This document shows positions 1,182 through 49,357 of a DNA stretch of 64,000 bases, one piece after another. The stretch's first letter is position 1, and every line of letters starts with the position of its first letter. Under the pieces are notes generated by a model. It saw only the letters and a program-made list of their open reading frames with translations, searched no databases and had not been told where the DNA came from. The DNA lies in NCBI GenBank assembly GCA_016191235.1, contig JACPOZ010000048.1, positions 1 through 64,000 of the forward strand, written 5' to 3'. The translations under genes and the position numbers were made by a program. This DNA comes from Gammaproteobacteria bacterium. GTDB lineage: Bacteria; Pseudomonadota; Gammaproteobacteria; Ga0077554; Ga007554.

Positions 1182-2378
1182 ATGCCCATTTATCTTTATA
1201 GCGCCTTGACAGAAAACGGTGTTTTAGCCACAGGCGAGGGGGTTGCCACCTCAAACGAGGCTTTACGCCACGAGTTGGTGGCCAAGGGTCTGTTGGTACA
1301 AGACATCCGTCAAAAGAACGCTGGCTTGGGCTTACGCCGGAAGCGCATCAAGGCGGAGGAGTTTCTGCTATTCAATCAGGAGTTCGTGGCACTCATTCGC
1401 GCTGGTTTGACAATACCAGATGCCTTGAAAATAGCGGCAGATCGTCCTGATAGCCCGATGTTGGCCAGTCTCCTGCGGCACGTGGATGAAGAGGTGCATG
1501 GCGGTGCGCTACTTTCCGAAGCCTGTTCCAGGCATCCCGAGGTGTTCGACGGTCTTTACGTCTCTGCGATAAAGGCTGGCGAAAAGACAGGGGTGCTGGC
1601 GGCGGTTCTGGAGAAATACCAGGCCTATCTCAAGCGCCGGGTTGGTCTGCAGAAAACCATTTCACATGCGATGACCTATCCTGTGTTTTTGTTGCTGGTG
1701 TTAGGTACGGTGCTGGGTGTGCTGTTTTTGTTTGTCATGCCGCGTTTTGTGGCGATGTATACCGATTTTGGCGCTGAACTGCCGCTGCCCACACAAATTC
1801 TCGTTACGTTGGTAAATAATTTGCCTTTTTATTTGCCGGTAGTGTTATTGCTGGGCACGCTCGGATGGTTTGCCATCCAGGCTTGGGTAAAGACTGAGGC
1901 CGGGCGTCTGCGGGCAGATCACTTGAAGGGACGGCTGCCGATTCTGGGGAAGATCTATCAGGATATCGCCATCGTGCAACTGGTGAGGACGCTTGCCACC
2001 CTGCTCTCCGGCGGTACACCCTTGGTCGAGGCCATGCGCATCACGCAGGATGCGCTTACCAATCGCGCCAAGGCGCGTGCGTTGGCGCAGGCCGAAACCC
2101 TGGTGATGGGAGGTCAAAGCCTGGCGTCTGCCATGCACAGTACACAACTCATGCCGGGAACGGCAATAAAGATGGTCGAGGTGGGCGAGGCTTCGGGTGG
2201 TCTTGACGCCATGCTGGAGGAAATAGCCCAGTTCTATGAGGAAATATTGACTAATAAACTTACACGCATGACGGCATTGATCGAGCCTTTATTGATGCTG
2301 ATCATGGGTGTCATGATTGGTGGCACGATCATCGTGATGTATTTGCCGATTTTTCAGATCGCGGACATCGTCAAATGA
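1182..2378 (+). CDS. Type II secretion/type IV pilus inner-membrane platform protein (GspF/PilC family)
   Basis: A 398-aa polytopic protein with the two repeated cytoplasmic T2SSF domains of the GspF/PilC family and three hydrophobic segments (about residues 165-195, 210-240 and 370-395), the last followed by a short tail. Length matches the family. It would form the platform coupling the ATPase encoded next to pilus or pseudopilus assembly. The stop overlaps the start of the ATPase gene by 4 nt (ATGA), so the two are translationally coupled. Gene order F before E differs from classical gsp operons (E-F) and from pilB-pilC. PilC versus GspF cannot be decided from the sequence alone. Confidence 0.92.
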   Translation: MPIYLYSALTENGVLATGEGVATSNEALRHELVAKGLLVQDIRQKNAGLGLRRKRIKAEEFLLFNQEFVALIRAGLTIPDALKIAADRPDSPMLASLLRHVDEEVHGGALLSEACSRHPEVFDGLYVSAIKAGEKTGVLAAVLEKYQAYLKRRVGLQKTISHAMTYPVFLLLVLGTVLGVLFLFVMPRFVAMYTDFGAELPLPTQILVTLVNNLPFYLPVVLLLGTLGWFAIQAWVKTEAGRLRADHLKGRLPILGKIYQDIAIVQLVRTLATLLSGGTPLVEAMRITQDALTNRAKARALAQAETLVMGGQSLASAMHSTQLMPGTAIKMVEVGEASGGLDAMLEEIAQFYEEILTNKLTRMTALIEPLLMLIMGVMIGGTIIVMYLPIFQIADIVK

Positions 2379-4093
2379 GCCATCCCTTCAGCTACCGGAA
2401 GTTAGGGGAAATCCTGCTGGACAAGCAGTATGTCAGCCAGCATCAGATAGATGCCGCCCTGACTGGCAAAAATGGCCGGCTCGGCGAGGCGTTGCTTGAT
2501 GAAAGCCGCATTACGCCGGCACAATTGTCCGAGGCTCTGGCCGAACAGTGCGGCTTGCCCTATGTTGATCTGGAGGGATTTGTTATCTCGCCAGATCTGT
2601 ATAATTTGATATCCGCAACGCACGCCTATCAGCATGGGGTTGTTCCCTACCAGAGAGACGGCGAGGTGTTGATCGTTGTTGTTTCTCCCCCCTGCGATAT
2701 TACTTTGGCAGACCACCTGGAGCGTTTGAGCGGCATGCAGGTGCGCTTATTCGCTAGCAGTCCGCAGGCGATTGCAGCGGTGTTGAAGCGCAGCGAAGGC
2801 AATTCCGAGGTACTCAAAGGCGTTTCCGAGGACTTCAAGCTTGCCATCGTCAAGGAGAATGACGATGGCAAGGAGCAATACGTATCACTTGACGCGGCCA
2901 ATGATGATGCCGCAAGCCCGGTTATAAAGCTCATTAACAGCATGCTGTCGGCGGCCATTCAAAAGCGCGTCAGTGACGTGCATATAGAGACCTACGAAAA
3001 GGGCATCTCGGTCAATTACCGTATCGACGGTGTTTTATACCCCGCGACCGATACGCTCGACCGGCGCCATCAGAGCGCGTTGGTGTCGCGCCTCAAAGTG
3101 ATGGCGGAGTTGGATATCGCCGAAAAAAGGGTGCCTCAGGATGGACGCTTCAAGTTGCGTTTTGGTTCGCGTGACATAGATTTTAGGGTATCCATTCTGC
3201 CCAGCGTGTTCGGCGAGGATGTGGTTATCCGAATTCTGGACAAATCATCCATCACCGATGGGATGAAGAATCTACGTCTGGAAAGCCTGGGAATGGTGCC
3301 TGAGATCCTGAAAAAATTTCGCAAGAGTATCCATGAACCCTATGGCATGGTGCTGATTACCGGCCCCACGGGCAGCGGGAAAACGACTACGCTGTATGCG
3401 GCGCTCAGCGAATTGAACACCGGTGATGAGAAGATCATTACTATCGAAGATCCGGTCGAGTATCAATTGCACGGCATCGTGCAGATCGCGGTAAACGAGA
3501 AAAAAAATCTTACCTTTGCCAAGGGGCTGCGTTCCATTCTGCGGCATGATCCTGACAAAATCATGGTAGGTGAAATACGTGATGGAGAAACAGCGCAGAT
3601 TGCCGTGCAATCGGCGCTGACGGGTCATCTGGTATTCACAACGGTACACGCTAATAGTGCCTTCGATGTGCTCGGGCGCTTCAACCACATGGGGGTGGAT
3701 ACGTATAACTTCGTGTCGGCGCTCAATTGTGTCATGGCGCAGCGCCTGGTTCGAATCATTTGTCCGAAATGCAAGCGTCAAACCACGGTTGATGATGGCC
3801 TTCTGGAACTGTCTGGACTCGATCCTGCGCAATATCAAAATCAGGCATGGTACGAAGGTGCCGGCTGCGATTACTGCCACGGTACAGGTTATCGCGGCCG
3901 CGCCGCTGTTACCGAGTTCCTCGCTTTGTCGCCATCCATCCGCCAGATGATCATAGAGCGACGCCCGATCAATGAGATGCAGGCGGCGGCGGTGCAGAAT
4001 GGCATGGTCACATTACGTCAATCCGCGCTGGCGCTGGTGTTTTCAGGTCAAGCGACGTTGAAAGAGATTAATCGTGTCACTTTCGTTGAATAA
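2375..4093 (+). CDS. Assembly ATPase, GspE/PilB family
   Basis: A 572-aa secretion/pilus extension ATPase. An N-terminal GspE_N/MshEN-like domain (about 1-150) precedes the hexameric AAA-like core with Walker A GPTGSGKT at about 328-335 and Walker B region MVGEIRDGETAQ at about 395-405. The C-terminal zinc-binding tetracysteine (CPKC with CDYC) typical of GspE and PilB is intact. It should power polymerisation of the pilin-like proteins encoded at the end of the operon. It overlaps the F gene by 4 nt upstream and the PilM-like gene by 20 nt downstream. Confidence 0.95.
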   Translation: MSHPFSYRKLGEILLDKQYVSQHQIDAALTGKNGRLGEALLDESRITPAQLSEALAEQCGLPYVDLEGFVISPDLYNLISATHAYQHGVVPYQRDGEVLIVVVSPPCDITLADHLERLSGMQVRLFASSPQAIAAVLKRSEGNSEVLKGVSEDFKLAIVKENDDGKEQYVSLDAANDDAASPVIKLINSMLSAAIQKRVSDVHIETYEKGISVNYRIDGVLYPATDTLDRRHQSALVSRLKVMAELDIAEKRVPQDGRFKLRFGSRDIDFRVSILPSVFGEDVVIRILDKSSITDGMKNLRLESLGMVPEILKKFRKSIHEPYGMVLITGPTGSGKTTTLYAALSELNTGDEKIITIEDPVEYQLHGIVQIAVNEKKNLTFAKGLRSILRHDPDKIMVGEIRDGETAQIAVQSALTGHLVFTTVHANSAFDVLGRFNHMGVDTYNFVSALNCVMAQRLVRIICPKCKRQTTVDDGLLELSGLDPAQYQNQAWYEGAGCDYCHGTGYRGRAAVTEFLALSPSIRQMIIERRPINEMQAAAVQNGMVTLRQSALALVFSGQATLKEINRVTFVE

Positions 4094-5030
4094 TCTGTTT
4101 GACAGGATTACGCCACGCTCTAAAACCGTGTTTGGGATCGGCATCGGCAGGGATCGTCTTTCTGCCGCGCATGTTGTTACTACAAAACAGGCACGCCATA
4201 TCGAACGGATCAAGCAGATAAATCTGCCTTTCACGCTATTCAGCGGCACCCCTACGCCCGAGATAGGCCATGCGCTTTCATCCTTATTGGGCGAGTTATG
4301 TGGTGAAGTCAAGCGGTCGCACATCCCCATCCAGATTGCATTGCCTGACCCGGTGGTGAGCTTGCGTGTCTTCGAGTTGGATGCCATTCCTAAAACCAGA
4401 AAAGAGCAACTGGCGCTTGTCCACTGGCGGTTCAACAAGGAGTTGAATTTGGCGGGGCGCGCCATTGAATGCAGTTGCCAGCCTTTGGGCGTGAATAACG
4501 ACAAACATCTCTTGTTGGCGATGGCTATCGATCAGGCTTGGTTGCTGTGCCTGAAGGAGGCGTGCCGGGACGCTGGTGTGATCAGTACGGTTATAGACAT
4601 GGCGGCGTGTTATCGCTCTAACCGTTTTTACGAACGCTTCTCTTGCGATGGCGCCGATGTGGTTGTTATTTCTTTGGATGACGACGTCTGGACACTATCC
4701 ATTTCGGACGCGCAAGGTCGGTTGCGTTTTGTCCGCTCGCGTTGGCGTGAAGCTATGCCGGAGCGGACGAGGGAATATCATGAAATAGCCGCCGAGTCAG
4801 AAAGGATGGTTCGCATATATACGCATGCCGCCCCGGGGAGAATCATAAAAAATCTACACACGGTAGGTAATGCCCAGGATATCTCTGGAGTCGCGGATTT
4901 GCTGGACCAGCACATGGCAGGGAAATGTATCAGGGTGGCCGGAGGAGTCGAGTTCATGTCTAAGCAAGGCATTTCCGGAAATACTGTAGACAGCATGGTG
5001 TCAACCCTGTCGGCGGCGATGTTGCGATGA
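4074..5030 (+). CDS. PilM-like actin-fold assembly protein
   Basis: A 318-aa cytoplasmic protein placed by context and fold features as PilM or the cytoplasmic half of GspL. The N-terminus contains the GIGIGRDRL segment seen in PilM/actin-like ATPases, and it is followed by a PilN-like protein, as in pilMNOP. It is somewhat shorter than typical PilM. The start is GTG at 4074, inside the 3' end of the ATPase gene (20-nt overlap). It would dock the ATPase/platform to the inner-membrane PilN-PilO complex. Sequence similarity to canonical PilM is modest to my eye, so the call leans on synteny. Confidence 0.7.
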   Translation: MSLSLNNLFDRITPRSKTVFGIGIGRDRLSAAHVVTTKQARHIERIKQINLPFTLFSGTPTPEIGHALSSLLGELCGEVKRSHIPIQIALPDPVVSLRVFELDAIPKTRKEQLALVHWRFNKELNLAGRAIECSCQPLGVNNDKHLLLAMAIDQAWLLCLKEACRDAGVISTVIDMAACYRSNRFYERFSCDGADVVVISLDDDVWTLSISDAQGRLRFVRSRWREAMPERTREYHEIAAESERMVRIYTHAAPGRIIKNLHTVGNAQDISGVADLLDQHMAGKCIRVAGGVEFMSKQGISGNTVDSMVSTLSAAMLR

Positions 5031-5569
5031 AAATCAGAACAAATTTTTCGACGTCATCCGCCGGTATGGTGCCGCGGATCATGATGATTTTATGGGTGGC
5101 CGCGCTTCTAGCCGCGCTGCTAATCGCTTGGATGGCTATGCAAACATCCCAATTGAAACAGACGAAACTGGATTTGGAGCATCAGTTGTCCAAACTCCAA
5201 AACAGGCACGTCGCTGGGATACCGAAAGTATTTCCCCGCCAGGAAGAGCTTGCCACGTTAAAAGGGCGTATAGCCGCCATTTCATCCATATCAAATAATC
5301 GGGAAGGGTCGCTATCTGCATTCCTGAGAAAAATAGAGTTGTTACTCCCTGACGAAGCCTATCTTGTGACTCTTCATTACAAGGGCGACACCAGGGAGGC
5401 TCAGATCACGGCTGAGGCTGGCAGCGCAAAAATACTTACTGGGTTTTTACGTGATCTTGAAAAAGAGAAGGAATTCCTTGAAGTACTGTTGACAAAACAG
5501 TCGCAGCGCACATTGAACGATAAACAGATTGTTCAGTTCGATCTGCGTATAAAGGAGCGTCTTTCATGA
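5027..5569 (+). CDS. PilN-like inner-membrane alignment protein
   Basis: A 180-aa bitopic protein: short cytoplasmic N-terminus, one transmembrane helix at about residues 13-35, a helical segment with heptad-like character (about 40-65) and a small periplasmic ferredoxin-like domain. This architecture is that of PilN or the C-terminal half of GspL. The start ATGA overlaps the PilM-like stop. With the next two genes it would form the inner-membrane alignment complex bridging the cytoplasmic ring and the secretin. Confidence 0.75.
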   Translation: MKIRTNFSTSSAGMVPRIMMILWVAALLAALLIAWMAMQTSQLKQTKLDLEHQLSKLQNRHVAGIPKVFPRQEELATLKGRIAAISSISNNREGSLSAFLRKIELLLPDEAYLVTLHYKGDTREAQITAEAGSAKILTGFLRDLEKEKEFLEVLLTKQSQRTLNDKQIVQFDLRIKERLS

Positions 5570-6135
5570 TGGCGACGCATCCTTTTTCGGAAAACATATT
5601 GTATTCACTACGCCATCCCCTGATCAAGGCGGGGATGGTGGCTAGTGGCTGCGCCATAACCCTGGCCATTGTGGTTTGTTTTGGATATTGGATGCCCGTA
5701 CGTAGCGACATCAATAGTCTCGCGGAATCGGTTAATTACGAACGTAAGCGGATTATTGATGATACGCGATCCGTACAAATCTATAGCGCATATTTGAGCG
5801 CTACAAAACAACTTACGGCCATTGATAAAAAAATTAACAGCCCCGCCGGGCATGCTGATCTTGTTAATAACATTGATAATCTCGCAATACACAGAAAAGT
5901 AGCTATTATTTCTGAATCCTACGATGAGGGTAAGGAAAGGAATGGTTATACACCGCTTTATATGGAGTTGGCATTACAGGGAGACTATCAGGGGCTGAGG
6001 GAGTTTCTTGTTGATATTCGTAGCCTGCCAACCTGGACTGTTGTTGGAGAGGGTTCGATAAGCCGCTTGGCAGGACAGCGGGATTTGGTTAAGGCGCAAT
6101 TGCGCTTAATAACTTATCACAAGACGGGCAGATGA
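5566..6135 (+). CDS. PilO/GspM-like inner-membrane protein
   Basis: A 189-aa bitopic protein with a transmembrane helix at about residues 20-43, a periplasmic coiled-coil stretch (SVNYERKRIIDD region) and a C-terminal ferredoxin-like fold (MELALQGDYQGLREFL). The sequence LQGDYQGLREFLVDI is typical of PilO. It overlaps its neighbours by 4 nt on both sides. It should heterodimerise with the PilN-like protein. Confidence 0.78.
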   Translation: MMATHPFSENILYSLRHPLIKAGMVASGCAITLAIVVCFGYWMPVRSDINSLAESVNYERKRIIDDTRSVQIYSAYLSATKQLTAIDKKINSPAGHADLVNNIDNLAIHRKVAIISESYDEGKERNGYTPLYMELALQGDYQGLREFLVDIRSLPTWTVVGEGSISRLAGQRDLVKAQLRLITYHKTGR

Positions 6136-6764
6136 AACGTTACAAGGAAATTGCCATCAGGCATCGCAATGCAATATTGCTAGTGCTGGCATTTATCTTA
6201 ATGGTCGTAAACGTATTGAATTGGGGGGGCTGGAGTCAGGCCAATTCACAGGAAGGGCCTGAAAGGGGAACGATGGCAGGGGAATTTCAGGTTTCTGATT
6301 TTCAGATAAAAGATCTGAATTTTCCTGCGGAACAAGATGGGGAAATTGGCCGTGACTTGTTCTATCCAGTTTTTGAGGAAGAGTCAGAACCTGTTAATGA
6401 GATGGCGTCCATTGCGGTGGATAATGAAAATATTAAACAAATAACTAATGCCGATATACCCCCCCCGATTTCGCAAAAAACTCCTGAACAACTTGAAGAG
6501 GAGATCGTGCGGTCTGACTTGGCTAATTTTAAATATGTTGGTTCTATTTGGCGCGGAGGACAAGGCCAGGCGCTTTTATTGAACACGGACAAGCGTTATT
6601 TTGTCTTTTCTGGAGACAAGGCCGGTAGCCGCTTTGTCGTTGAAAGGATAACGACCGACGCGGTCTCTCTAAGAGACCCTGCCACAAATGTGACGGCTCA
6701 AATACTAATATCCGGAGGGGCCTCGATAAACGCGGCTCAAGAAATAAGTGATGTTGAAAGATAG
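6132..6764 (+). CDS. PilP/GspC-like periplasmic linker protein
   Basis: A 210-aa protein with one N-terminal transmembrane helix (about residues 14-32), a low-complexity acidic linker, and a C-terminal beta domain (about 130-200; GGQGQALLLNTDKRYFVFSG, then VSLRDPAT) resembling the HR domain of GspC/PilP that contacts the secretin N0 domain. Unlike classical PilP it shows no lipobox, so it is anchored like GspC. It lies directly before the secretin gene (6-nt gap). The assignment rests on architecture and position. Confidence 0.62.
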   Translation: MKRYKEIAIRHRNAILLVLAFILMVVNVLNWGGWSQANSQEGPERGTMAGEFQVSDFQIKDLNFPAEQDGEIGRDLFYPVFEEESEPVNEMASIAVDNENIKQITNADIPPPISQKTPEQLEEEIVRSDLANFKYVGSIWRGGQGQALLLNTDKRYFVFSGDKAGSRFVVERITTDAVSLRDPATNVTAQILISGGASINAAQEISDVER

Positions 6765-6770
6765 CGTCGG

Positions 6771-9053
6771 ATGAAACCGATGAAAAGAAGAATATGGTGT
6801 TTCATGGTTGTCGCGTTGTGCCTCTTGGTCGCGGCTTGTGCCGGTCCAATTCGCAAAGCGGAGATTTATGAAGATAAACAGGAATGGATAAGCGCTGTCA
6901 TTGAATACCGAAAGGCCTATAACGATGACCCAAGGAATGTGGAGTATAAGGCACGCCTAAAGCATGCTGAATTCAAGGCGGCTGATTATTATTACCGTCA
7001 AGGGATGCTGCTTTTAGAGCGGGAAAAGATCGATGAATCCATTGTTCAGTTTCAGCAGGGTTTGACGGCAATGCCGGGTGATGAGCGGTTAATGCAGGCA
7101 ATGAACAAGGCGCTTGCAAAAAGAGAGGCCAATAACCTTTATCAAGAGGGAGTTCTGATAAACGGCGCGGGTAATGTCGGCGAGGCGAAGCGTATATTTC
7201 AGAGGGCCATAAATGTCTATCCTGATCACAAAGCGGCATTAGAGGCCCTTGCCAATATTGAAAATAAAACCCCTGAGGAGCGTGATGGTGAGAAGTTTTC
7301 GTTGACTTCAACATCTCCCATATCGCTGAATTTCCGTCAAACCGATATGCGCTCTGTTTTTGAGTTCGTTGCCAAGTCTTTTGGCATAAATATTATATTT
7401 GATGAGGGTATCAAGACCATATCCCCTGTCACAGTATTTGCCAAAGATGTTTCTTTCGAGCAAGCTTTGGCCCTTATTAATGTGGCTACCAAGACTTTCT
7501 ATAAAAAAATCAGCAAAAATACCATCATTGTTGTGCCGGATTCGAAGGACAAGCGTGGTCAATATGAGGATCATGTGATGCGCACTTTTTATTTGAGCAC
7601 TATCCGGGCCAAGGAGGTGGCGGATATCCTGAGGGGTGTGATGACAATCAGGAAAATCATCGTCAACGAACAGTTAAATACACTGGTTGTCCGTGATACC
7701 GATGAGGTTATCAGGCAGGTGGCAAAGATTATTGATATCAACGACAGAAAGCCCGCTGAAATAGTTTTGGAAGTTGAAATTCTGGAGATGAATCGCACCA
7801 AGGCCGAGCGTCTTGGCCTTGATCTTGGGTCATATCAAATCAGCGCTACGGTTCCGTCAGCCATCGCTCTGAGTGGATCCATTAGCGGCGCGATTGAGAA
7901 AGCCTCCTTACTTACACTTCCTTCAGCGACCTTCCGTTTTTTTAAGCAGGATGTAGATGCCAGGACGCTTGCCAATCCCAAAGTAAGGGTTGTGAACGGA
8001 AAATCCGCAAAAATCCATATCGGTGACCGTGTTCCATTGCGTGTTTCCACTATCATCAATACGACGGGGCAGGTGAACACAACCTATGACTACAAAGACA
8101 TCGGCATAAAGCTTAACGTTGAGCCAACCATAAATCTGGATAACTCATCACTAGTAAAGCTTAGTTTGGAAGTGAGCTCCCTGGGGGCGAATCTGGGAAC
8201 GGCGACAGAGCCGGCATACCGTATTGGCACCCGGAATGCTGAGACACTTATGCTGTTGCGTGATGGTGAAACGGCGATTCTAGGTGGTCTTATTCGTGAT
8301 GAGGATCGCAAAACGGTAGTAAGGATTCCATTGCTGGGAGACATTCCTGCCGCAGGTTCTCTATTTAGTTCCTACGATATGTCAAAAGAGCGCACCGACG
8401 TATTGCTGACGATCACTCCTCGTGTTGTGCGAGGCTGGGATCTGCCCGCCAAGGAAGCTCGCCAATTTTATTCTGGAACGGAAGATAAATATCTTGATCA
8501 AGCCCCCTTTCAGAGCCTGGCTTCTCCATCATCGGCTGCGGCAAAGGAGAATGCCGGGATTCAGGAATCCCCGCAGGTGCCGGTTAATGAAAATCCGGCT
8601 GTACCCCCATCGTCGGGTCAGTCGATTGCGCCAGGTATTGGGGGGAATGTTATCCAGTCTCCCGCTCTCGTCTTTTCTAAGCCAGCTTATATGGCGATCA
8701 ATCAAGACGAGGTGGATGTTCAGCTTCTTTTTGACAACCCCTCAAAAAACAGGGAGATCGCGACGGAAATACAATTCAATCCAAAGGTTCTGCAATTTGT
8801 CGGGAGTGATGCGGGTGAATTCAATTTTGGGTTTTTCCAAGCCGACAAAAATGAGGCGGGAGATGTTGTACGTCTAAGCGCCGGGTTTGCAAATGATGCT
8901 CTCTCAAAAGAGAAAGGTATCCTGGCAACCCTCCGGTTCCGTGCGTTAAAGCCAGGTGTTTCCGCCCTGACGTATGGTGTCTCATCGGTCAAAAATGCAG
9001 CGGGTGACATCATTAGTCCGCAGTCAAATATCTCTCGTGTCATTGTACGGTAG
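6771..9053 (+). CDS. Secretin lipoprotein with TPR repeats and C-terminal cohesin-like domain
   Basis: A 760-aa outer-membrane secretin. The N-terminus has a lipoprotein signal (LLVAAC, Cys23). Residues 30-170 hold TPR-like helical repeats, 180-330 hold STN/N-domains, and about 330-600 form the secretin pore domain, with IPLLGDIP and the TITPRVV end. After a Pro/Ser linker there is a cohesin-like beta domain (about 630-755; VQLLFDNPSKN to ATLRFRALKPG). TPR plus secretin plus cohesin resembles MshL/PilQ-like secretins of environmental Proteobacteria rather than classical GspD. It is the outer-membrane exit of the machine in this operon. The cohesin-like domain could bind a partner at the pore; that is inference. 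Confidence 0.88.
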   Translation: MKPMKRRIWCFMVVALCLLVAACAGPIRKAEIYEDKQEWISAVIEYRKAYNDDPRNVEYKARLKHAEFKAADYYYRQGMLLLEREKIDESIVQFQQGLTAMPGDERLMQAMNKALAKREANNLYQEGVLINGAGNVGEAKRIFQRAINVYPDHKAALEALANIENKTPEERDGEKFSLTSTSPISLNFRQTDMRSVFEFVAKSFGINIIFDEGIKTISPVTVFAKDVSFEQALALINVATKTFYKKISKNTIIVVPDSKDKRGQYEDHVMRTFYLSTIRAKEVADILRGVMTIRKIIVNEQLNTLVVRDTDEVIRQVAKIIDINDRKPAEIVLEVEILEMNRTKAERLGLDLGSYQISATVPSAIALSGSISGAIEKASLLTLPSATFRFFKQDVDARTLANPKVRVVNGKSAKIHIGDRVPLRVSTIINTTGQVNTTYDYKDIGIKLNVEPTINLDNSSLVKLSLEVSSLGANLGTATEPAYRIGTRNAETLMLLRDGETAILGGLIRDEDRKTVVRIPLLGDIPAAGSLFSSYDMSKERTDVLLTITPRVVRGWDLPAKEARQFYSGTEDKYLDQAPFQSLASPSSAAAKENAGIQESPQVPVNENPAVPPSSGQSIAPGIGGNVIQSPALVFSKPAYMAINQDEVDVQLLFDNPSKNREIATEIQFNPKVLQFVGSDAGEFNFGFFQADKNEAGDVVRLSAGFANDALSKEKGILATLRFRALKPGVSALTYGVSSVKNAAGDIISPQSNISRVIVR

Positions 9054-9534
9054 GAAATACAAAGTCCGGGGAGTCACCTTCGTCGAGTTGCTGGTGACGT
9101 TGGTGATTCTTTCGATTCTCGCTGCGGTTGCATTGCCTTATGCGGAAATTACGGTGCGCCGCAACAAGGAGATAGAGTTGCGCCAGGCGCTGCGTGACAT
9201 GCGTGGTGCCATCGATCGTTTTCATCTTGATTGGGAAACTGCAAAAATATCGAAGCTGAATAATGCCGTTAGCGAAGATGGTTACCCAAAAACCTTGCAA
9301 GTATTGGTTGAAGGCGTGGGTGCTGATCAGGCCAAAGGGGGGAAGATTAAATACTTGCGCCGTATTCCTGCCGACCCGTTCTCCGACCCAGGTAAGCCAT
9401 CACTGGAGCATTGGGTGCTGCGCGGCTATCAGGATGCGCCCGATGCCACCTCGTGGGGAGGAACAGATGTTTACGATGTACGGTCAGCAAGCCGTCGCAA
9501 GGCGATTGATGGCAGCTTCTACAAGGATTGGTGA
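9037..9534 (+). CDS. Pilin-like protein 1 (class III leader, E5)
   Basis: About 165 aa with a prepilin-type N-terminus: basic leader, cleavage after Gly in RG|VTFVELL with Glu at +5, then a hydrophobic helix (VTLVILSILAAVALP). The soluble part resembles GspG-type pseudopilins. The track ORF begins at 8974, but that would give an overlong leader; GTG 9037 or TTG 9043, inside the 3' end of the secretin gene, gives a normal 10-12 residue leader. The start remains uncertain because none has a strong ribosome site. Function: minor or major subunit of the pseudopilus built by this operon. Confidence 0.8.
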   Translation: MSLYGRKYKVRGVTFVELLVTLVILSILAAVALPYAEITVRRNKEIELRQALRDMRGAIDRFHLDWETAKISKLNNAVSEDGYPKTLQVLVEGVGADQAKGGKIKYLRRIPADPFSDPGKPSLEHWVLRGYQDAPDATSWGGTDVYDVRSASRRKAIDGSFYKDW

Positions 9535-9535
9535 C

Positions 9536-9913
9536 ATGCGCCGCGATATTGTCCACAGCGCGCGCGGCTTTACCTTGGTGGAGCTGATGGTAGTGCTGGT
9601 TTTGATTGTCATTCTCGCCAGTCTTGCAGCACCCTTGGTAACAAGTTCAATACAGCGCGGCCGTGAGGCTGTGCTCAGGGAAGATTTGTTGGTGATGCGA
9701 AAAGCGATTGATAATTATTATGCGGATACGGGAAGTTATCCCGAGGATATGAAGCAACTGATGGAAAAACGTTATCTGAGGCAAATCCCGGTGGATCCTT
9801 TAACCGAACGAAGTGATACGTGGCGTGAGGTTCGTGATGATGCGGGGATTATTGATATAAAAAGCGGAGCGGATGGGAAATCCGCCAATGATGTGTCATA
9901 CAGCGAGTGGTAG
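9536..9913 (+). CDS. Pilin-like protein 2 (GspG-like)
   Basis: A 125-aa pseudopilin. Leader MRRDIVHSARG is followed by FTLVELMVVLVLIVILASLAAP, a textbook prepilin peptidase site with Glu at +5. The C-terminus (SGADGKSAND region) resembles the calcium-binding end of GspG. The track ORF starts at 9263, but ATG 9536, just after the stop of pilin-like protein 1, gives the correct leader. It requires a PilD-type peptidase, which is not encoded in this window. Confidence 0.85.
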   Translation: MRRDIVHSARGFTLVELMVVLVLIVILASLAAPLVTSSIQRGREAVLREDLLVMRKAIDNYYADTGSYPEDMKQLMEKRYLRQIPVDPLTERSDTWREVRDDAGIIDIKSGADGKSANDVSYSEW

Positions 9914-9953
9914 TTTTTTTATTCTAATCTGGTTTGATGTGAGGGGCTGATCT

Positions 9954-10388
9954 ATGAAAAAGAGCATGAGATGGTCTTTGGGTTTTACCATGATGGAGTT
10001 GCTGATTGTTCTGGTTATTATCGGATTGTTAGCGGCTTTGGTAGGCCCTGCGTTGTTCCAGCGCATCAATCCGGCAAAACAATCGGCGGCGCGCAGCCAG
10101 ATTGAAAATTTCATGACAGCTCTCGATACCTATTTTGTCGACAACGGACACTTTCCAACGACGCAACAGGGTTTTTTGGCGCTGCGTGTAAAGCCGGAAG
10201 GCGATGAAAAGTGGGCGGGGCCTTATCTTAAAAAAGACGTACCAAATGATCCATGGGGAAATCCATACCAATACCGTGCTCCTGGACACAATGGTGGCTA
10301 TGATATTTTATCTCTGGGCGCGGATGGTAAAGAGGGTGGCGAAAATGAAAATAAGGATATCAATAGCTGGGAGATCGACAAGAAATAG
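9954..10388 (+). CDS. Major pseudopilin GspG-like protein
   Basis: A 144-aa protein with all hallmarks of GspG: leader MKKSMRWSLG|FTMMELLIVLVIIG with Glu at +5, conserved WGNPYQYRAPG turn and the C-terminal calcium-site loop SLGADGKEGG followed by DINSWE. This is the best candidate for the major subunit of the pseudopilus. It starts 40 bp after the previous gene, with GAGG upstream of the ATG. The 3' end overlaps the next pilin-like gene by 44 nt. Confidence 0.93.
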   Translation: MKKSMRWSLGFTMMELLIVLVIIGLLAALVGPALFQRINPAKQSAARSQIENFMTALDTYFVDNGHFPTTQQGFLALRVKPEGDEKWAGPYLKKDVPNDPWGNPYQYRAPGHNGGYDILSLGADGKEGGENENKDINSWEIDKK

Positions 10389-10893
10389 CCAGGCTGGATT
10401 TACCTATGTAATGGTGCTGGTCGCGGTTGTAATAACCGGCCTGATGGCCGGGGTTGCAGCCACCATCACATCGCGGGTTATGCAGGCCGAGAGAGAGACG
10501 GAATTGCTTTTCCGTGGCCTGGCGTATCAGAATGCGATAAAAAGCTATTATCAGGCCGGCAAGCAACTTAATACGTTTACCTTTCCGCGCTCGCTAAACG
10601 ATCTACTGAAAGACCCGCGCTTTCCTGGCAAGCGTCACATTCGTGCCCTGTATGCGGACCCGATGGGTAGTGGTGAGCGGGAGTGGCGTGTAATCCGCGC
10701 AATTGATGGCGGTATCACCGGTGTTGTCAGCTCAAGCAAACAAAAATCTTTAAAGACCGCCAACTTTCCCGTCGGTCTGGAATCGTTGGCGGGCAAGAAA
10801 TCCTATGCGGAATGGATTTTCCTGTATAACGCCCCCGCAGCAATCCAAACCCCACGTCCCGTCATGCCACGTATACCTGTGCAGCGGAAATAG
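10345..10893 (+). CDS. Pilin-like protein 4 lacking Glu5
   Basis: About 182 aa from ATG 10345 (MKIRISIAGRSTRNSQAG|FTYVMVLVAVVITG). The leader Gly and hydrophobic helix are those of a type IV pilin-like protein, but position +5 is Met instead of Glu, as is known for the tip pseudopilin GspK. It overlaps the GspG-like gene by 44 nt and ends the operon. The soluble part (RALYADPMGSGEREWRVI) resembles proteins annotated as type II secretion pseudopilins. The track start at 10204 is too far upstream. It probably caps or initiates the pseudopilus. Confidence 0.75.
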   Translation: MKIRISIAGRSTRNSQAGFTYVMVLVAVVITGLMAGVAATITSRVMQAERETELLFRGLAYQNAIKSYYQAGKQLNTFTFPRSLNDLLKDPRFPGKRHIRALYADPMGSGEREWRVIRAIDGGITGVVSSSKQKSLKTANFPVGLESLAGKKSYAEWIFLYNAPAAIQTPRPVMPRIPVQRK

Positions 10894-25530: not shown

Positions 25531-25580
25531 CGCCAGTTAATTGGCGATAATTGACAAAAAATGTCAATAACATATATAAA
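25531..25580 (+). promoter_or_regulatory. Promoter with palindromes upstream of rloA
   Basis: -35 TTGACA at 25551-25556 and -10 TATAAA at 25575-25580 (18-bp spacer). A perfect palindrome ATTGACA-N5-TGTCAAT (25550-25568) covers the -35, and a second inverted repeat CGCCA-N6-TGGCG lies at 25531-25546. The layout suggests repression of the RloAB operon. Confidence 0.55.
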
Positions 25581-25643
25581 ATTAATGTAATATTGCTTGA
25601 TGGCTGTAATTGTGGCGTTTTTATGAATTTAAAGGAGGTGATC

Positions 25644-26924
25644 ATGTTGATTGAGTTCAGCGTGACGAATTTCAGGTCTATCCAATCGCGGCAAACATTA
25701 AGTTTGGCCAAATCCAAGCTTAAGGAATCCAAGGGGTTAGATCAGAACACCTTTACGCCAAGTGAGTTGCCTGGTTTGGGTTTGCTCAGATCGGCCGCTA
25801 TCTACGGCCCTAATGCGGCGGGTAAATCCAATCTGCTACTGGCGTTGCGCACTATGAAGGATATCGTCGTGGAGTCGGCCACCGAATGGCAGCGGGGCGA
25901 TGAAGTGCCAGTGAGTCCCTTCAGGCTTGATCCTCAATCTGCAATGGCGCCCACGGAGTTCGAGGTGATCTTTATCGCGGAGGGGGTGCGCTATCAATAT
26001 GGTTTTTCCGCGACACGGGTGCAGATTATCGAGGAGTGGCTGATCGCCTATCCCAAAGTGCGAGCCCAGCACTGGTTCGCCCGACGTTGGAATGAAAAGA
26101 AGGGGGGGTATGACTGGGATATGGGCAGCGCCCTGCAAGGACAAAAGCAGCTATGGGAGGATTCTACTCGTAGTAATGCGCTGTTCTTGTCTACAGCTGT
26201 TCAGTTAAACAGCCAGCAGCTACAGCCCGTTTATGATTGGTTCAAGAAAACATTGCGCACAACAAGCATTGCAGGTTGGGGGCCAGGTTTTACTGCGTCA
26301 TTGTGTGGTGAGTCTGTAAACAAGGCCAAAGTGTTGGCGTTTCTTAGAGCGGCGGATATTGATATTCAGGATGTGTTAATTGAGAGAAAAGTGTTCGATG
26401 CCAGCGATCTGCCCAAGGGTATGTCGGATGAGATCAAGGCAATGATTGTCAAAAAGATGGAAGGGAAGGAGGTGCTTGCTGAATTGAATACGGTGCATCA
26501 GGATTCCACCGGCAAGCCCATCGCTTTTGATTTTGAGGAGGAGTCCGATGGCACCCAAAAGCTCTTTTCGTTTGCAGGGCCGTGGCTGGATACGCTGAAA
26601 AATGGCTATGTGCTTTTCATTGATGAGTTGCACGACAACCTGCACCCCAAACTGGTGCAGTTTCTGGTGGAGCTGTTCCACAGTGACGAAACCAATCCCA
26701 AGAATGCCCAATTGGTGTTTACTACTCATGAAACCTCCATCCTGAATCAGGAGGTGTTTCGCCGAGATCAAGTGTGGTTCTGCGAGAAGAGCGATCATCG
26801 TTCCACGACCCTTTTCCCGCTGACGGACTTTAGTCCTCGCAAGGGTAGGGAAAATCTTGAGATGACCTATCTTGCCGGGCGTTATGGCGCTTTGCCTTAT
26901 GTACGCAAGTTAAAAGCAGGCTAA
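25644..26924 (+). CDS. rloA: RloA-like AAA-family ATPase
   Basis: A 426-aa SMC/ABC-like ATPase: N-terminal FSVTNFRSI, Walker A in YGPNAAGKSNLL (about residue 55), Walker B VLFIDELHDNLHP near 330 and a switch His in TTHETSIL. This is the overcoming-lysogenization-defect-like, AAA_15/21 layout seen in RloA and in the ATPase of PARIS-type defence. ATG 25644 is preceded by a perfect AAAGGAGGTGATC ribosome site, so the upstream track start is not used. It is 4 nt upstream of rloB. It probably senses phage or foreign DNA and controls the RloB effector. Confidence 0.88.
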   Translation: MLIEFSVTNFRSIQSRQTLSLAKSKLKESKGLDQNTFTPSELPGLGLLRSAAIYGPNAAGKSNLLLALRTMKDIVVESATEWQRGDEVPVSPFRLDPQSAMAPTEFEVIFIAEGVRYQYGFSATRVQIIEEWLIAYPKVRAQHWFARRWNEKKGGYDWDMGSALQGQKQLWEDSTRSNALFLSTAVQLNSQQLQPVYDWFKKTLRTTSIAGWGPGFTASLCGESVNKAKVLAFLRAADIDIQDVLIERKVFDASDLPKGMSDEIKAMIVKKMEGKEVLAELNTVHQDSTGKPIAFDFEEESDGTQKLFSFAGPWLDTLKNGYVLFIDELHDNLHPKLVQFLVELFHSDETNPKNAQLVFTTHETSILNQEVFRRDQVWFCEKSDHRSTTLFPLTDFSPRKGRENLEMTYLAGRYGALPYVRKLKAG

Positions 26925-27763: not shown

Positions 27764-30418
27764 CTATCCAATAACAGCATCAAGCTGCTGGTAAACATTT
27801 CTGCCCTTTTGGTCGGATTCTTCCGCCATGAGGAAGAGGCACTTGCCACCGCTCTTCTCTGCCCAGATATTGCCCACGGCCTTTTTCTCGCGTGAGTCGT
27901 CATTGGTCTTGTAAGGTTCGCCCTTGTACTCGATCACGAACAGGCGGCCATCCTCCAGCTCTGCCACAAAGTCAGGATAGAACCAGCCATTGGCCAGCGG
28001 CAGACGGAAAGAAGCCTGTTGCCGGTCAACCAGATTCCTGGCCCAATGTTTAACCTTGGGGCTGGCATCCATCGCCTGGGCGCACAGAAACTCCTCACCC
28101 TCCACCTTCAAATCTTCAATGATGGGGTAATAGTGCTTCTTAAATTTGTAGCGCCCGCTATAAAAGGGGCTGCGGGCCGGATAAAGTCCCGGTTTGAATT
28201 CAAAGCTGTAACGGAAGCTGGACTCAAGCGGTACAACATTATCAAACATTGTTTGCTGAAACCCATTAGCCGCTGCTTTGCTTTGCAGTAACACCAGCCG
28301 CTGGCGCAAGGCACGTACTAACAGAAATTTACTACGAATCAATGCAGTTAATGTATAGCCCTTGTCTCGAATCAAATGAGATATTGTCGATATTAAAAAA
28401 CGATTAAGAATGCTCTGATTCAGAGTGGCGTTGCGGAGTTGCCGATCCAACCAACGTACCAAATCGTTTTCGGTAATCTCTGTTTCGACCAAGTCGAGGT
28501 TGTAAACCTCCTTTTCTTCGGCAATATGGTATGTGACCTTCTGCCCCTCCATATCCACCTCAAAGGTGGTATCGCTCTGTTTGAGCGAGAAGTTGGGCAG
28601 CTCAACGGCAAACTCCAGCGGCGACCAGTCACCATTCAAAAACAGAAAGGTCTCCGGCTCCAGCAGCTCAAGTTCACCCTGCTGTCCGGCGCACAGACGC
28701 GGCAACGGCGCAAAGGGGATGCCACGCTCAGAGGGTGAGAGTGTCGCCTCAACGCGGGCATTGTGTTGCTCTATCTGCCCCAGAAGCTCTTTTTTATCAC
28801 CGCCCTTGAATGGCTTCAGAATCTCATCATGCAAGGCGTCATCGAGCTTGCCCTTCACCTCCAGCCTGAAGCCACTCTCTGTTTCAATGATGGAGACATT
28901 GCTCAATAACGGTTCATGCTCTGGTTTGAATTCCGGTTTGCTGGGCAGATCAAGGGTAAGAGGTGGTTCAGGCGGCATAGCAACAGAATCACCACCGCCA
29001 AACAGATCATCGGGAACGCCATGACGAATATGAGCCGGAACCTCCATCGTCTCAAAGCCCATATCCACCAACTTATCAGCCAGCGTTTTCGCCACTTCCG
29101 AAAACTTTGGCGATGCCAGATGGGCATAGGCCCGGTTCAATGCCTCCACCTTGCGGCGGCGGGCAAAGGGCATGCGCAATACCCGCCCTAACAACTGCTC
29201 CGCATCCTTGCTGGAACGTACATCACGCACCGAACAAAAGACGTAGGCAAAAGAGCAGTCCCACCCCTCTTTCAGCGCCTCAATGGTAATGATGTATTCA
29301 ATCTTGCATTCGGGCGAAAAGAGGTTGATGCCGTCCAGCTCCCGCTGTGTGCCCGTCACCACGGCAATCCGTTCATCCTCAATCTTCAGCTCATCCATGA
29401 GATAAGCCTTCAATTTTTCCCACGGCACTTCGCCGTTCTTCTTGTCGGCCTGTAGCAGCACAATCGGGCGGATGTAGTCGCTATCCTTCTGCGCCTCCAG
29501 CGCCAGTTTGTTGCGCGTCAGCATCGCATCGCGCACAGCGGCCTGCCAGTCGTTATGCTCCGTCAGCATGATCGGCAGCTTGATCATATCCTCCGCCTTC
29601 AACTCAGAGGCGGAGACGTGATAGAGCATATTGGAGGCAGAGGTTGCCGATTGATCCGGCGTGGCGGTGAACTCGATCACCGCTGCCGGATGTACACGCT
29701 TCAACGTTTCAAAGGTCAGCGGCGTGCGGGCGTTGTGCGCCTCGTCCATGATCACCAGCGGATGTTTTAACGCCAGCAGATTGGCGAATGAATATTTGAT
29801 CTTGCCCAGCTGCGAAGGGCCAAGGCCATTCTCTTTCAGGTCAGCCTCCGTCACGCGCTCCAGCCGTTCATCTTTTGGATTCACACCGACAAAGTGCGGC
29901 TCAAAATCTTCGTGATAGGCATAGACCTTACGGGCACTGGTATCAGTCACGCGCAGATTGGCCAGGGTGCTCACCACCACAATCAACTGCGAACCAAGAT
30001 CGTGGTGGCGAATCTGTGTCACCTCATCCGCATCCAGCACCCGCACCCGCTGATCAAAGGCGCGGTCCAGCTCTGCGCGGTAGGGGTGGCCCGGCTGCTT
30101 CAACGCCTCCAGCGTCTGCTGCTGAATAGTGTTGGTCGGCACCAACCACAACACAATCGGGTAATCCTGTTCCAGATAGGCGCGTGTCGCCACCTTGATG
30201 GCGTGTGAAGCCAGCACGGTTTTACCACCGCCCGTCGGCAGGCGCAGGCAGACATAAGGCACTTCACCAAAACCATAACCACGATAGGTGTAGCTGCCCT
30301 TGCCTTGTGCCGCCAGGCTCTTGGAAAACGCCTGCTCGACGGGCATCAAACGGGCATCGGCCAAAAACTGTTCCAACGCTTTGATGGTCTGCTGTTGATA
30401 GTGTTTGAGGTTGAACAT
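27764..30418 (-). CDS. res: Type III restriction enzyme, Res subunit
   Basis: An 884-aa SF2 helicase-nuclease. Walker A is LPTGGGKT, the DEAD-like box is MDEAHNARTPL followed by EFTATPD, and motif VI is QLLGRVLRMP. The C-terminal endonuclease has Asp in YPDFVAEL and EYKG, a PD-(D/E)xK site. It translocates on DNA and cleaves between inverted sites in complex with Mod. The start codon directly abuts the mod stop. It lies within the tRNA-flanked island and shows no frame damage, so it is probably active. Confidence 0.95.
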   Translation of the reverse strand: MFNLKHYQQQTIKALEQFLADARLMPVEQAFSKSLAAQGKGSYTYRGYGFGEVPYVCLRLPTGGGKTVLASHAIKVATRAYLEQDYPIVLWLVPTNTIQQQTLEALKQPGHPYRAELDRAFDQRVRVLDADEVTQIRHHDLGSQLIVVVSTLANLRVTDTSARKVYAYHEDFEPHFVGVNPKDERLERVTEADLKENGLGPSQLGKIKYSFANLLALKHPLVIMDEAHNARTPLTFETLKRVHPAAVIEFTATPDQSATSASNMLYHVSASELKAEDMIKLPIMLTEHNDWQAAVRDAMLTRNKLALEAQKDSDYIRPIVLLQADKKNGEVPWEKLKAYLMDELKIEDERIAVVTGTQRELDGINLFSPECKIEYIITIEALKEGWDCSFAYVFCSVRDVRSSKDAEQLLGRVLRMPFARRRKVEALNRAYAHLASPKFSEVAKTLADKLVDMGFETMEVPAHIRHGVPDDLFGGGDSVAMPPEPPLTLDLPSKPEFKPEHEPLLSNVSIIETESGFRLEVKGKLDDALHDEILKPFKGGDKKELLGQIEQHNARVEATLSPSERGIPFAPLPRLCAGQQGELELLEPETFLFLNGDWSPLEFAVELPNFSLKQSDTTFEVDMEGQKVTYHIAEEKEVYNLDLVETEITENDLVRWLDRQLRNATLNQSILNRFLISTISHLIRDKGYTLTALIRSKFLLVRALRQRLVLLQSKAAANGFQQTMFDNVVPLESSFRYSFEFKPGLYPARSPFYSGRYKFKKHYYPIIEDLKVEGEEFLCAQAMDASPKVKHWARNLVDRQQASFRLPLANGWFYPDFVAELEDGRLFVIEYKGEPYKTNDDSREKKAVGNIWAEKSGGKCLFLMAEESDQKGRNVYQQLDAVIG

Positions 30419-31948
30419 CTAGCGTGTCCTCACGTCGTAGGGAATCTGTTTGAAGGTGATGCTCTCGCTCTGCAAACGCGCCGTACCCAAGCGGCTGCTC
30501 TCGCCATAGATCACCTTGGGGCCATCGTGCTCCGGCAACTCTGCCAGAACCGGGCCAGTCAGCACGTTGCCCCCTTGCGGGCGGCGATCACCGAGTACGC
30601 CGTTATAGAGCAGGTAATAGGCCGTGCCATTGTGTACACCCAGCAGCGGCGACTTGCTGCGCTTGCTCCATGGTGTGTGCGTCTCCAGATACCAGACATG
30701 GGCCGCCAATTCAGCAAAGCGAATGTCGGGACGAATCGCGCCAAACTCATCAAACACCGTTGGCCCCAGACGATAGAAATGGAAACCGCCACCGCCTTGC
30801 CACTCGACTGATTTGGATATGCCGCCTTGTTCGCCGTCCACCACCTTTTTCAAGCGTGGCTGGCAGTGGGTCTCCGCATGTTCACCCATCTCGATACCGA
30901 TGTAACGGCGGTTCATTTTGTGGGCGACAGCGGCGGTGGTGCCGGAGCCAAGAAAAGAATCCAACACTAATTCATTGGTGTTTGTTGCAATAGCGATTAT
31001 TTGCTCAATTAGCTTTTCCGGTTTTGGTGTCCCAAATGGCTCGGAGTTAACAAGAGTAAGTTGCTCCTTTCTACCATCCTGAGTGTGACCAACATCACCC
31101 CATAGCCAAATTGTTTGCGAGACAACGCCATCATCAGCAACAGTGGATAAGTGTCGTTTGAAAGCAGGGACTTTGCTTTTTCCATTTGTTCCCCACCAGA
31201 GTAGATCTTTTGCTTTATGTTCTTCGTAGGCATCTTTGCTATAAGCCCAAACGCGCGTGCGTTTAGGCCAGATTTCTTCACCAGTGACAGGATGAATAAT
31301 TGGATAATAGAGGTTTGGCCGTTCATCGGCGCTTTTTGCGCACGTGTAATCACCGGATTTCCATGGCCCTCTTGAATCATCGTCTGGGTTTTTGTAAGCA
31401 GAATTTGATTTTTCTGATCTTGATAGTTTGTTTGGTCTCCAGACAGTCTTGTTTTTTGCGTATATATGAATGTGGTCGTGGTTATCACTAAACCAAATAG
31501 CATCATTTGCCGGTGCATATTTCTTTTGCCACACTACATTTGCTATGAAGTTTCTCCGCCCAAACACCTCATCCATCATCACCTTCAGATAATGGGCCTC
31601 GTTGTCATCAATCGACACCCAGATGCTGCCATCCTCTGACAGCAGCTCCCGCAACAGCTCCAGCCGTGGGTACATCATGCAGAGCCACTGGCTATGCTCC
31701 AGGTTGTCGTCGTAATGTTCAAAGGCCGATTTGGTGTTGTAAGGCGGGTCGATGTAGATGCACTTCACTTTGCCCGCATAGAGCGGTAGCAGCGCCTTGA
31801 GCGCCTCCAGGTTGTCGCCCTGAATCAGCATGTTCTCGGTGTCGGCATCACCATAAGAAAGGTTCTTCACCCCTTGCAGCAGGCGGTAAGGTACGTGCCT
31901 GGCAGTTTTAACCGCCTCGCCTTTATTCAACCAATCAAGAATAGGCAT
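30419..31948 (-). CDS. mod: Type III DNA methyltransferase, Mod subunit
   Basis: A 509-aa beta-class amino-methyltransferase: motif IV DPPYNT near residue 69 comes before motif I DSFLGSGTTAAVA near 335, with the target recognition region between. It would methylate an asymmetric site (N6-adenine most likely) and give Res its specificity. Bases about 30960-31560, which encode the recognition region, look clearly richer in A+T than the flanking parts of the gene. No simple-sequence repeat for phase variation is visible. Transcribed mod-res, zero spacing. Confidence 0.95.
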   Translation of the reverse strand: MPILDWLNKGEAVKTARHVPYRLLQGVKNLSYGDADTENMLIQGDNLEALKALLPLYAGKVKCIYIDPPYNTKSAFEHYDDNLEHSQWLCMMYPRLELLRELLSEDGSIWVSIDDNEAHYLKVMMDEVFGRRNFIANVVWQKKYAPANDAIWFSDNHDHIHIYAKNKTVWRPNKLSRSEKSNSAYKNPDDDSRGPWKSGDYTCAKSADERPNLYYPIIHPVTGEEIWPKRTRVWAYSKDAYEEHKAKDLLWWGTNGKSKVPAFKRHLSTVADDGVVSQTIWLWGDVGHTQDGRKEQLTLVNSEPFGTPKPEKLIEQIIAIATNTNELVLDSFLGSGTTAAVAHKMNRRYIGIEMGEHAETHCQPRLKKVVDGEQGGISKSVEWQGGGGFHFYRLGPTVFDEFGAIRPDIRFAELAAHVWYLETHTPWSKRSKSPLLGVHNGTAYYLLYNGVLGDRRPQGGNVLTGPVLAELPEHDGPKVIYGESSRLGTARLQSESITFKQIPYDVRTR

Positions 31949-49186: not shown

Positions 49187-49298
49187 GATTTTCTCTTGCT
49201 GGGAAGCGGGTGGCGTATGGGTGAGGGGATTGCTGGACAAGCTTGCTCTTGATGTTTTACATCTCGCTACGCACCACGTGGAGGGCATAATCCTATAA

Positions 49299-49357
49299 TG
49301 CGTTGTGTTGCTACTCAACGCTTGGTGGGTTACGCAGAAAACGCTAACCCACCCTGC
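49299..49357 (-). repeat. Dispersed hairpin repeat, copy B
   Basis: Reverse-complement counterpart of 14902-14956: GCAGGGTGGGTTAGCG and GCGTAACCCACC arms, then AGCGTTGAGTAGCAACACAA. It lies between coq7 and the protease gene. Copies differ by about 12 bases but keep the pairing, as expected for a REP-like element under structural constraint. Confidence 0.7.

Follow-up and report, generated by a model that had tools for sequence, protein, structure and literature searches.

Gene content of the operon

The window analysed here comprises 64,000 nt of a Gammaproteobacteria bacterium (assembly GCA_016191235.1, contig JACPOZ010000048.1, positions 1 to 64,000 of the forward strand) and contains, at positions 1182-10893 of the + strand, an operon of eleven genes that probably encodes a complete protein-secretion machine of an atypical type II kind, from a branch of the type II secretion/type IV pilus superfamily that has received little study. 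Open reading frames (ORFs) together with Pfam and NCBIfam matches gave the gene order F-E-M-N-O-P-Q-G1-G2-G3-X, in which neighbouring genes overlap or are separated by gaps of 1-40 bp. All genes are kept in identical order on independent contigs, although some operon members were not detected on the most distant ones. The order had already been proposed in a sequence-only reading of this DNA, together with a mixture of type II secretion and type IV pilus features; both proposals held, since GspG- and GspC-like parts occur beside PilM-, PilN-, PilO- and PilP-like parts. Overall, the operon provides a platform protein with a single assembly ATPase, the PilM/N/O/P-like parts, a secretin and four pilin-like proteins, of which all but one have Glu5.

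The first two products belong to well-defined families. F (1182-2378, +) is a GspF/PilC-type inner-membrane platform protein (PF00482, 2.4e-52) and E (2375-4093, +) is a GspE/PilB-type assembly ATPase (T2SSE PF00437, 5e-130) that contains an MshEN domain at aa 60-144 (PF05157, 8e-17), preceded at aa 9-58 by an MshE-like cyclic di-GMP (c-di-GMP) motif scoring 41.2 bits with NF053729 against a cut-off of 38. The window subgroup retains this motif, whereas the Rhodobacteraceae and Burkholderiales relatives either lack it or have a degenerate form. M (4074-5030, +, GTG start) gave no match in Pfam and NCBIfam scans; it is PilM-like by profile only, the family profile A3 matching PilM 3jc8 in the PDB (E=2e-4), and it occupies the place between E and N in relatives. 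N (5027-5569, +) is a PilN-like bitopic membrane protein (PF05137, 4e-8), and O (5566-6135, +) is a bitopic membrane protein with a weak resemblance to PilO/GspM (PF04350, 0.001, slightly below the cut-off; XpsM, 0.0028). P (6132-6764, +) consists of an N-terminal transmembrane helix in the topology of GspC, a linker and a C-terminal HR beta-domain; its profile matches PilP 2ivw (3e-4) and the HR domain of its model matches PilP and GspC 3oss_C (TMt 0.80, rmsd 1.7). The GspC-like linker of the sequence-only reading is thus found in P, as an HR domain common to PilP and GspC on a GspC-like helix. Single-sequence PDB searches with P or with the cohesin domain described below returned nothing useful, and the matches came from profiles and folds only.

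Four pilin-like genes close the operon. G1 (9058-9534, +; PF07963, 6e-7; coding region read from 9058, with a longer overlapping ORF starting at 8974) and G2 (9536-9913, +; PF07963, 1.5e-7) encode pseudopilins with Glu5, the N-methyl motif being conserved in G1. G3 (9954-10388, +), which also has Glu5, is the major pseudopilin and a GspG equivalog, with 165 bits against a TIGR01710 cut-off of 88.9. X (10345-10893, +) has a weak GspG match and the same place in relatives, and its orthologs with an alignable N-terminus have no Glu at +5. GspK, the tip pilin of type II secretion systems (T2SS), likewise lacks Glu5, and X is on its sequence a probable tip (GspK-like) pseudopilin. The pilins had been described as GspG-like; this is true of G3 but not of the whole set.

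A gene for a DsbA-like thioredoxin-fold lipoprotein (344-1129, +; Pfam Thioredoxin_4, 1e-32; lipobox VILSAC read from the sequence) ends 52 bp upstream of F and has the machine as its neighbour in four of the family's loci (L020/L032, L033, L034). Because the window starts at the contig start, the genes that lie further upstream in relatives are missing from it.

A predicted lipoprotein secretin with a cohesin tail

Q (6771-9053, +) is a secretin (PF00263, 4e-38; PF03958; TPR_2) with PilQ and GspD matches in the PDB. It is built, from the N-terminus, of a lipobox, TPRs (about aa 40-165, in agreement with the sequence-only reading), N-domains, the Secretin domain (aa 392-554), a Pro/Ser-rich linker and a 130-residue C-terminal domain (aa 629-760; 8655-9050, +). 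The lipobox is kept in relatives with an intact N-terminus (LVAAC, LVSAC, IIAAC and others), and Q is a predicted lipoprotein with the lipobox expected of a self-piloting lipoprotein secretin.

The C-terminal domain had been called cohesin-like, and structure prediction bears this out. On its single sequence the Pfam model PF00963 reached 23.7 bits, just below the cut-off of 24.1, while an AlphaFold model built on 15 aligned family members had a pLDDT of 93.6 and a pTM of 0.87. The best Foldseek match of this model was 2xdh, a non-cellulosomal Archaeoglobus cohesin (E=2e-9, TM 0.83), and the best 50 PDB matches were all cohesins or cohesin modules. As modelled, the domain has the cohesin jelly-roll fold. 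An iterated profile detected it in each of the 13 window-type secretins that were scanned and in 11 of the 20 from Burkholderiales, but in neither the GspD nor the PilQ that the host genome encodes separately. Some plasmid members are already annotated by PGAP as 'cohesin domain-containing protein', and a full-text literature search, with subscription journals mostly outside its reach, found no paper that joined cohesin, secretin and type II secretion. The cohesin-tailed secretin has no description that we could find in the searchable literature; the atypical T2SS class itself has probably been described before.

Cohesins raise the question of a dockerin-bearing partner, for which the sequence-only reading had recommended a search. 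PF00404 detected no dockerin in the 78.6%-complete host assembly and none in the scanned neighbouring proteins. The presence of the cohesin showed no evident correlation with the type of neighbouring gene. A cellulosome-like scaffold that displays dockerin-bearing partners on the cell surface would agree with the confidently predicted fold and with its retention in all window-type and about half of the Burkholderiales members. We nevertheless regard such a scaffold as quite improbable: the dockerin searches were negative, and the C-terminal region of solved secretins lies on the periplasmic side of the pore, which makes display at the surface unlikely.

Relatives, neighbouring genes and candidate cargo

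The same genome contains a second complete copy of the machine on contig C72 (L016), with a secretin 67% identical to Q. The gene order recurs in two congeneric species, in further gamma- and betaproteobacterial metagenome-assembled genomes, in Rhodobacteraceae and on two contigs that carry the label FCPU426 or uncultured bacterium. The Rhodobacteraceae loci lie on Yoonia and Aliiroseovarius plasmids, and the Aliiroseovarius plasmid encodes an A24 prepilin peptidase of its own directly upstream of F. In a related Burkholderiales set G3 is mostly placed before F.

Large Sec-type secreted proteins are encoded beside the machine in 13 of the 20 Burkholderiales loci of the clade. Giant RHS/FG-GAP/SpvB or RHS-TIG proteins flank it in Janthinobacterium (on both sides), in Eleftheria (two plasmids), in Burkholderia ambifaria and in Caballeronia (loci L084, L085, L101, L102, L103 and L145 on Burkholderiales plasmids; G246, C1:2562-2577 kb). 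On one chromosome, in a genome of 5.4 Mb, no RHS match lies more than about 10 kb away from the machine. The five Burkholderiales-type genomes searched, 23 Mb in all, contained roughly six RHS clusters, so that an RHS neighbour in 7 of 20 loci greatly exceeds what chance would give, with the reservation that the loci are partly non-independent and that plasmids may differ. Multicopper oxidase genes adjoin the machine in Cupriavidus metallidurans CH34 (L149, 20401-22092) and in Paraburkholderia (L146, 23339-30160), the latter locus also having a MauG-type dihaem cytochrome gene nearby. Other neighbours in the clade are M4 and S8 proteases and GH2/discoidin proteins.

Closer to the window, a gene ahead of the second copy and on the same strand encodes a 1180-residue signal-peptide protein with twelve Big_7 Ig domains (L087, 635-4174, -), which ends in a single RHS motif (YTYDELGRLIGVQH); the order is Ig-repeat protein, a secreted protein of 123 aa and then F. 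In two sister species (G304 and G302) the region upstream of the machine encodes a ~3450-residue FHA protein of the two-partner secretion type with its TpsB (L151, 158-14643; L152), as well as an ExbB-DUF2341-LamG protein, TonB and a porin, with ExbD also seen in G304. A homologous POTRA/TpsB protein (35% identity) and an FHA gene lie near the machine of Aquabacterium (L147, 23142-31875).

Two leads for cargo within the host genome were set aside. Its multicopper oxidases are CopA-like or nitrite-reductase-like, lie on other contigs and gave no clear cargo. The C-terminal RHS motif did not behave as a general sorting tag, as the genome has only three, and two of these coincide with sites that the RHS_repeat model had picked out before. 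Elsewhere in the window, a trypsin-like protease with a hydrophobic segment (47165-49318, -) is a candidate secreted substrate that does not adjoin the operon. The window also encodes a type III restriction-modification-like pair, made up of a ResIII helicase-nuclease and an N6/N4 DNA methylase (27764-31948, -), near which lies an AAA_21 ATPase of AbiEii/OLD-like type, a possible defence gene (25551-26924, +).

Taken together, the parts and the neighbours suggest the following mechanism. Cargo, consisting of large secreted proteins often encoded nearby, would be exported by Sec and fold in the periplasm, where the DsbA-like lipoprotein may aid its folding. E and F would polymerise G3 under a tip of G1, G2 and X into a short periplasmic pseudopilus, with c-di-GMP perhaps adjusting the activity of E by way of the MshEN motif, and this pseudopilus would push folded substrates through the pore of Q. 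The secretin would reach the outer membrane by its own lipid anchor, its TPRs acting as a TPR pilotin, and P would couple it to the inner-membrane platform. The cohesin, on its flexible tail, would hold a partner at the pore, most likely a substrate or an outer-membrane anchor; given the negative PF00404 search, this is the weakest step of the mechanism. A broader proposal makes the export of giant repeat proteins that depend on Sec (RHS, FG-GAP/SpvB, Ig-repeat), and of multicopper oxidases, the dedicated task of the whole TPR-secretin-cohesin clade, with the cohesin serving as substrate or anchor receptor for a non-dockerin ligand. We offer this as a tentative suggestion and would not at present favour it. 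The cohesin gives a concrete handle on cargo recognition by such a machine, a problem still unsolved for T2SS in general. RHS/FG-GAP proteins are usually discussed in connection with type VI secretion, and the genomic neighbours point to a possible Gram-negative secretion route for those with a signal peptide.

Comparison with known secretion and pilus systems

We compared the operon with the established families by means of curated equivalog models and a tree of 83 ATPase sequences. The tree covers one gene and is midpoint-rooted, its unrooted split being what counts; the references were an MSHA set picked by adjacency to MshL, E. coli GspE and HofB, and PilB-like proteins of type IVa pili. 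The window family (14 sequences) and the Burkholderiales group (20 sequences) formed one clade with a support of 1.0, separate from GspE (0.998), from the MSHA set (1.0) and from the main PilB groups (0.947). F, E and Q fell below every curated cut-off for GspD/E/F, PilB/C/Q and MshL: E scored 557 bits with PilB, its best model (cut-off 676), and 545 with GspE (630); F scored 296 with TIGR02120 (GspF; 424) and was also below cut-off with the PilC models; and Q scored 170 with GspD (351), 150 with PilQ (284) and 91 with MshL (250). Because the ATPase clade is separate and these scores are low, the operon is placed within neither MSHA nor the standard T2SS, and the distinct subtype suggested by the sequence-only reading stands.

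Descent from the canonical Gsp T2SS by divergence could account for the GspG-type major pilin, the GspF-like platform and the GspC-like topology of P; the operon also has in common with Gsp a GspE-family ATPase, a secretin and an HR-type linker. We consider it very improbable, as the ATPase branches outside GspE, no GspL, GspH, GspI, GspJ, GspK or GspN model matched above its cut-off, and the host genome has a separate Gsp operon (L017). A PilM/PilN-like split moreover takes the place of GspL, the pilin-like proteins number four instead of five, and the canonical secretin differs from Q with its predicted lipidation, TPRs and cohesin. Assembly of a true surface type IV pilus, adhesive or for DNA uptake, is a less remote alternative: a PilM-N-O-P-Q-like platform replaces GspL/GspM/GspC, E has an MshEN domain as in MSHA, and PilB is its top-scoring model. 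We still judge a surface pilus unlikely. The major pilin is a GspG equivalog, X resembles GspK, the operon encodes no PilT (PilT-like matches lie elsewhere), the secretin has no MshL match above cut-off, and the ATPase lies outside both the PilB and MSHA clades. The neighbours of the clade, secreted enzymes and giant repeat proteins of the Sec type, also favour protein secretion over a pilus.

Several points weigh against protein secretion by an Xcm-like machine. The window operon contains no substrate gene, as the sequence-only reading had stated, and 7 of the 20 Burkholderiales loci have no obvious substrate neighbour. The FHA/TpsB neighbours found in the genus have an export route of their own. 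Finally, the tie to Xcm runs through Pseudomonas putida PP3483, taken here to be the Xcm ATPase.

Single traits of Q have counterparts in characterised proteins, HxcQ being a lipidated self-piloting secretin and PilF/PilW being TPR pilotins; Q differs from them in uniting lipobox and TPRs in one protein, with a cohesin in addition. The window-type system may be among the 884 systems that Denise et al. 2019 left as 'generic' (PMC6668835). If its assignment to the Xcm and Pul/Oxp pathways is true, the reports on secretion of the P. putida Mn-oxidase and of Geobacter OmpB, linked to Fe/Mn-oxide reduction, would merge into one widespread subtype, possibly joined by many of these generic systems, with a lipidated and often cohesin-tailed TPR secretin as its signature.

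PMC3543383 and PMC5566968, citing Mehta 2006, cover the 'atypical type II' Pul/Oxp pathway of Geobacter; PMC3543383 describes this Pul system as required for secreting the multicopper oxidase OmpB, names its pseudopilins (PulG, OxpG, TklG) and reports its entire duplication in Pelobacter carbinolicus. The window's system resembles Pul/Oxp, to judge from these published descriptions, in its small pseudopilin set and in its second complete copy in one genome, and differs in that no OmpB-type gene adjoins the operon. PMC4509608, citing de Vrind 2003, presents Xcm of P. putida GB-1 as a 'novel Gsp-related' pathway for secretion of the Mn-oxidising factor, a T2SS separate from Xcp that came to light only when Xcm itself served as bait. 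The Geobacter sulfurreducens Pul ATPase (PulE) is GSU1783 (PMC8557921), and in a 2006 table NE1609, an ATPase of Nitrosomonas, has GSU1783, Pcar_0131, PP3483 and RSp0148 (Ralstonia) as its close homologues, at 1e-129 or better, with the next match at 1e-91 (PMC1569441). An ATPase of this NE1609 type, set off from others by that gap, would be a further likeness to Pul/Oxp, and the grouping of PP3483 with these ATPases would be the likeness to Xcm. A point of difference on the Xcm side is gene order, as the Burkholderiales relatives, unlike the window, mostly have G3 before F. The published BLAST gap and the monophyly of the window and Burkholderiales ATPases are consistent with an Xcm/Oxp grouping. 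Given its composition, its duplication and published homology scores, as opposed to aligned sequences, the operon is a probable member of the Xcm / Pul-Oxp clade of atypical type II systems. The system is indeed a distinct subtype, as the sequence-only reading had suggested, yet it most likely belongs to pathways already described and is probably not new in kind.

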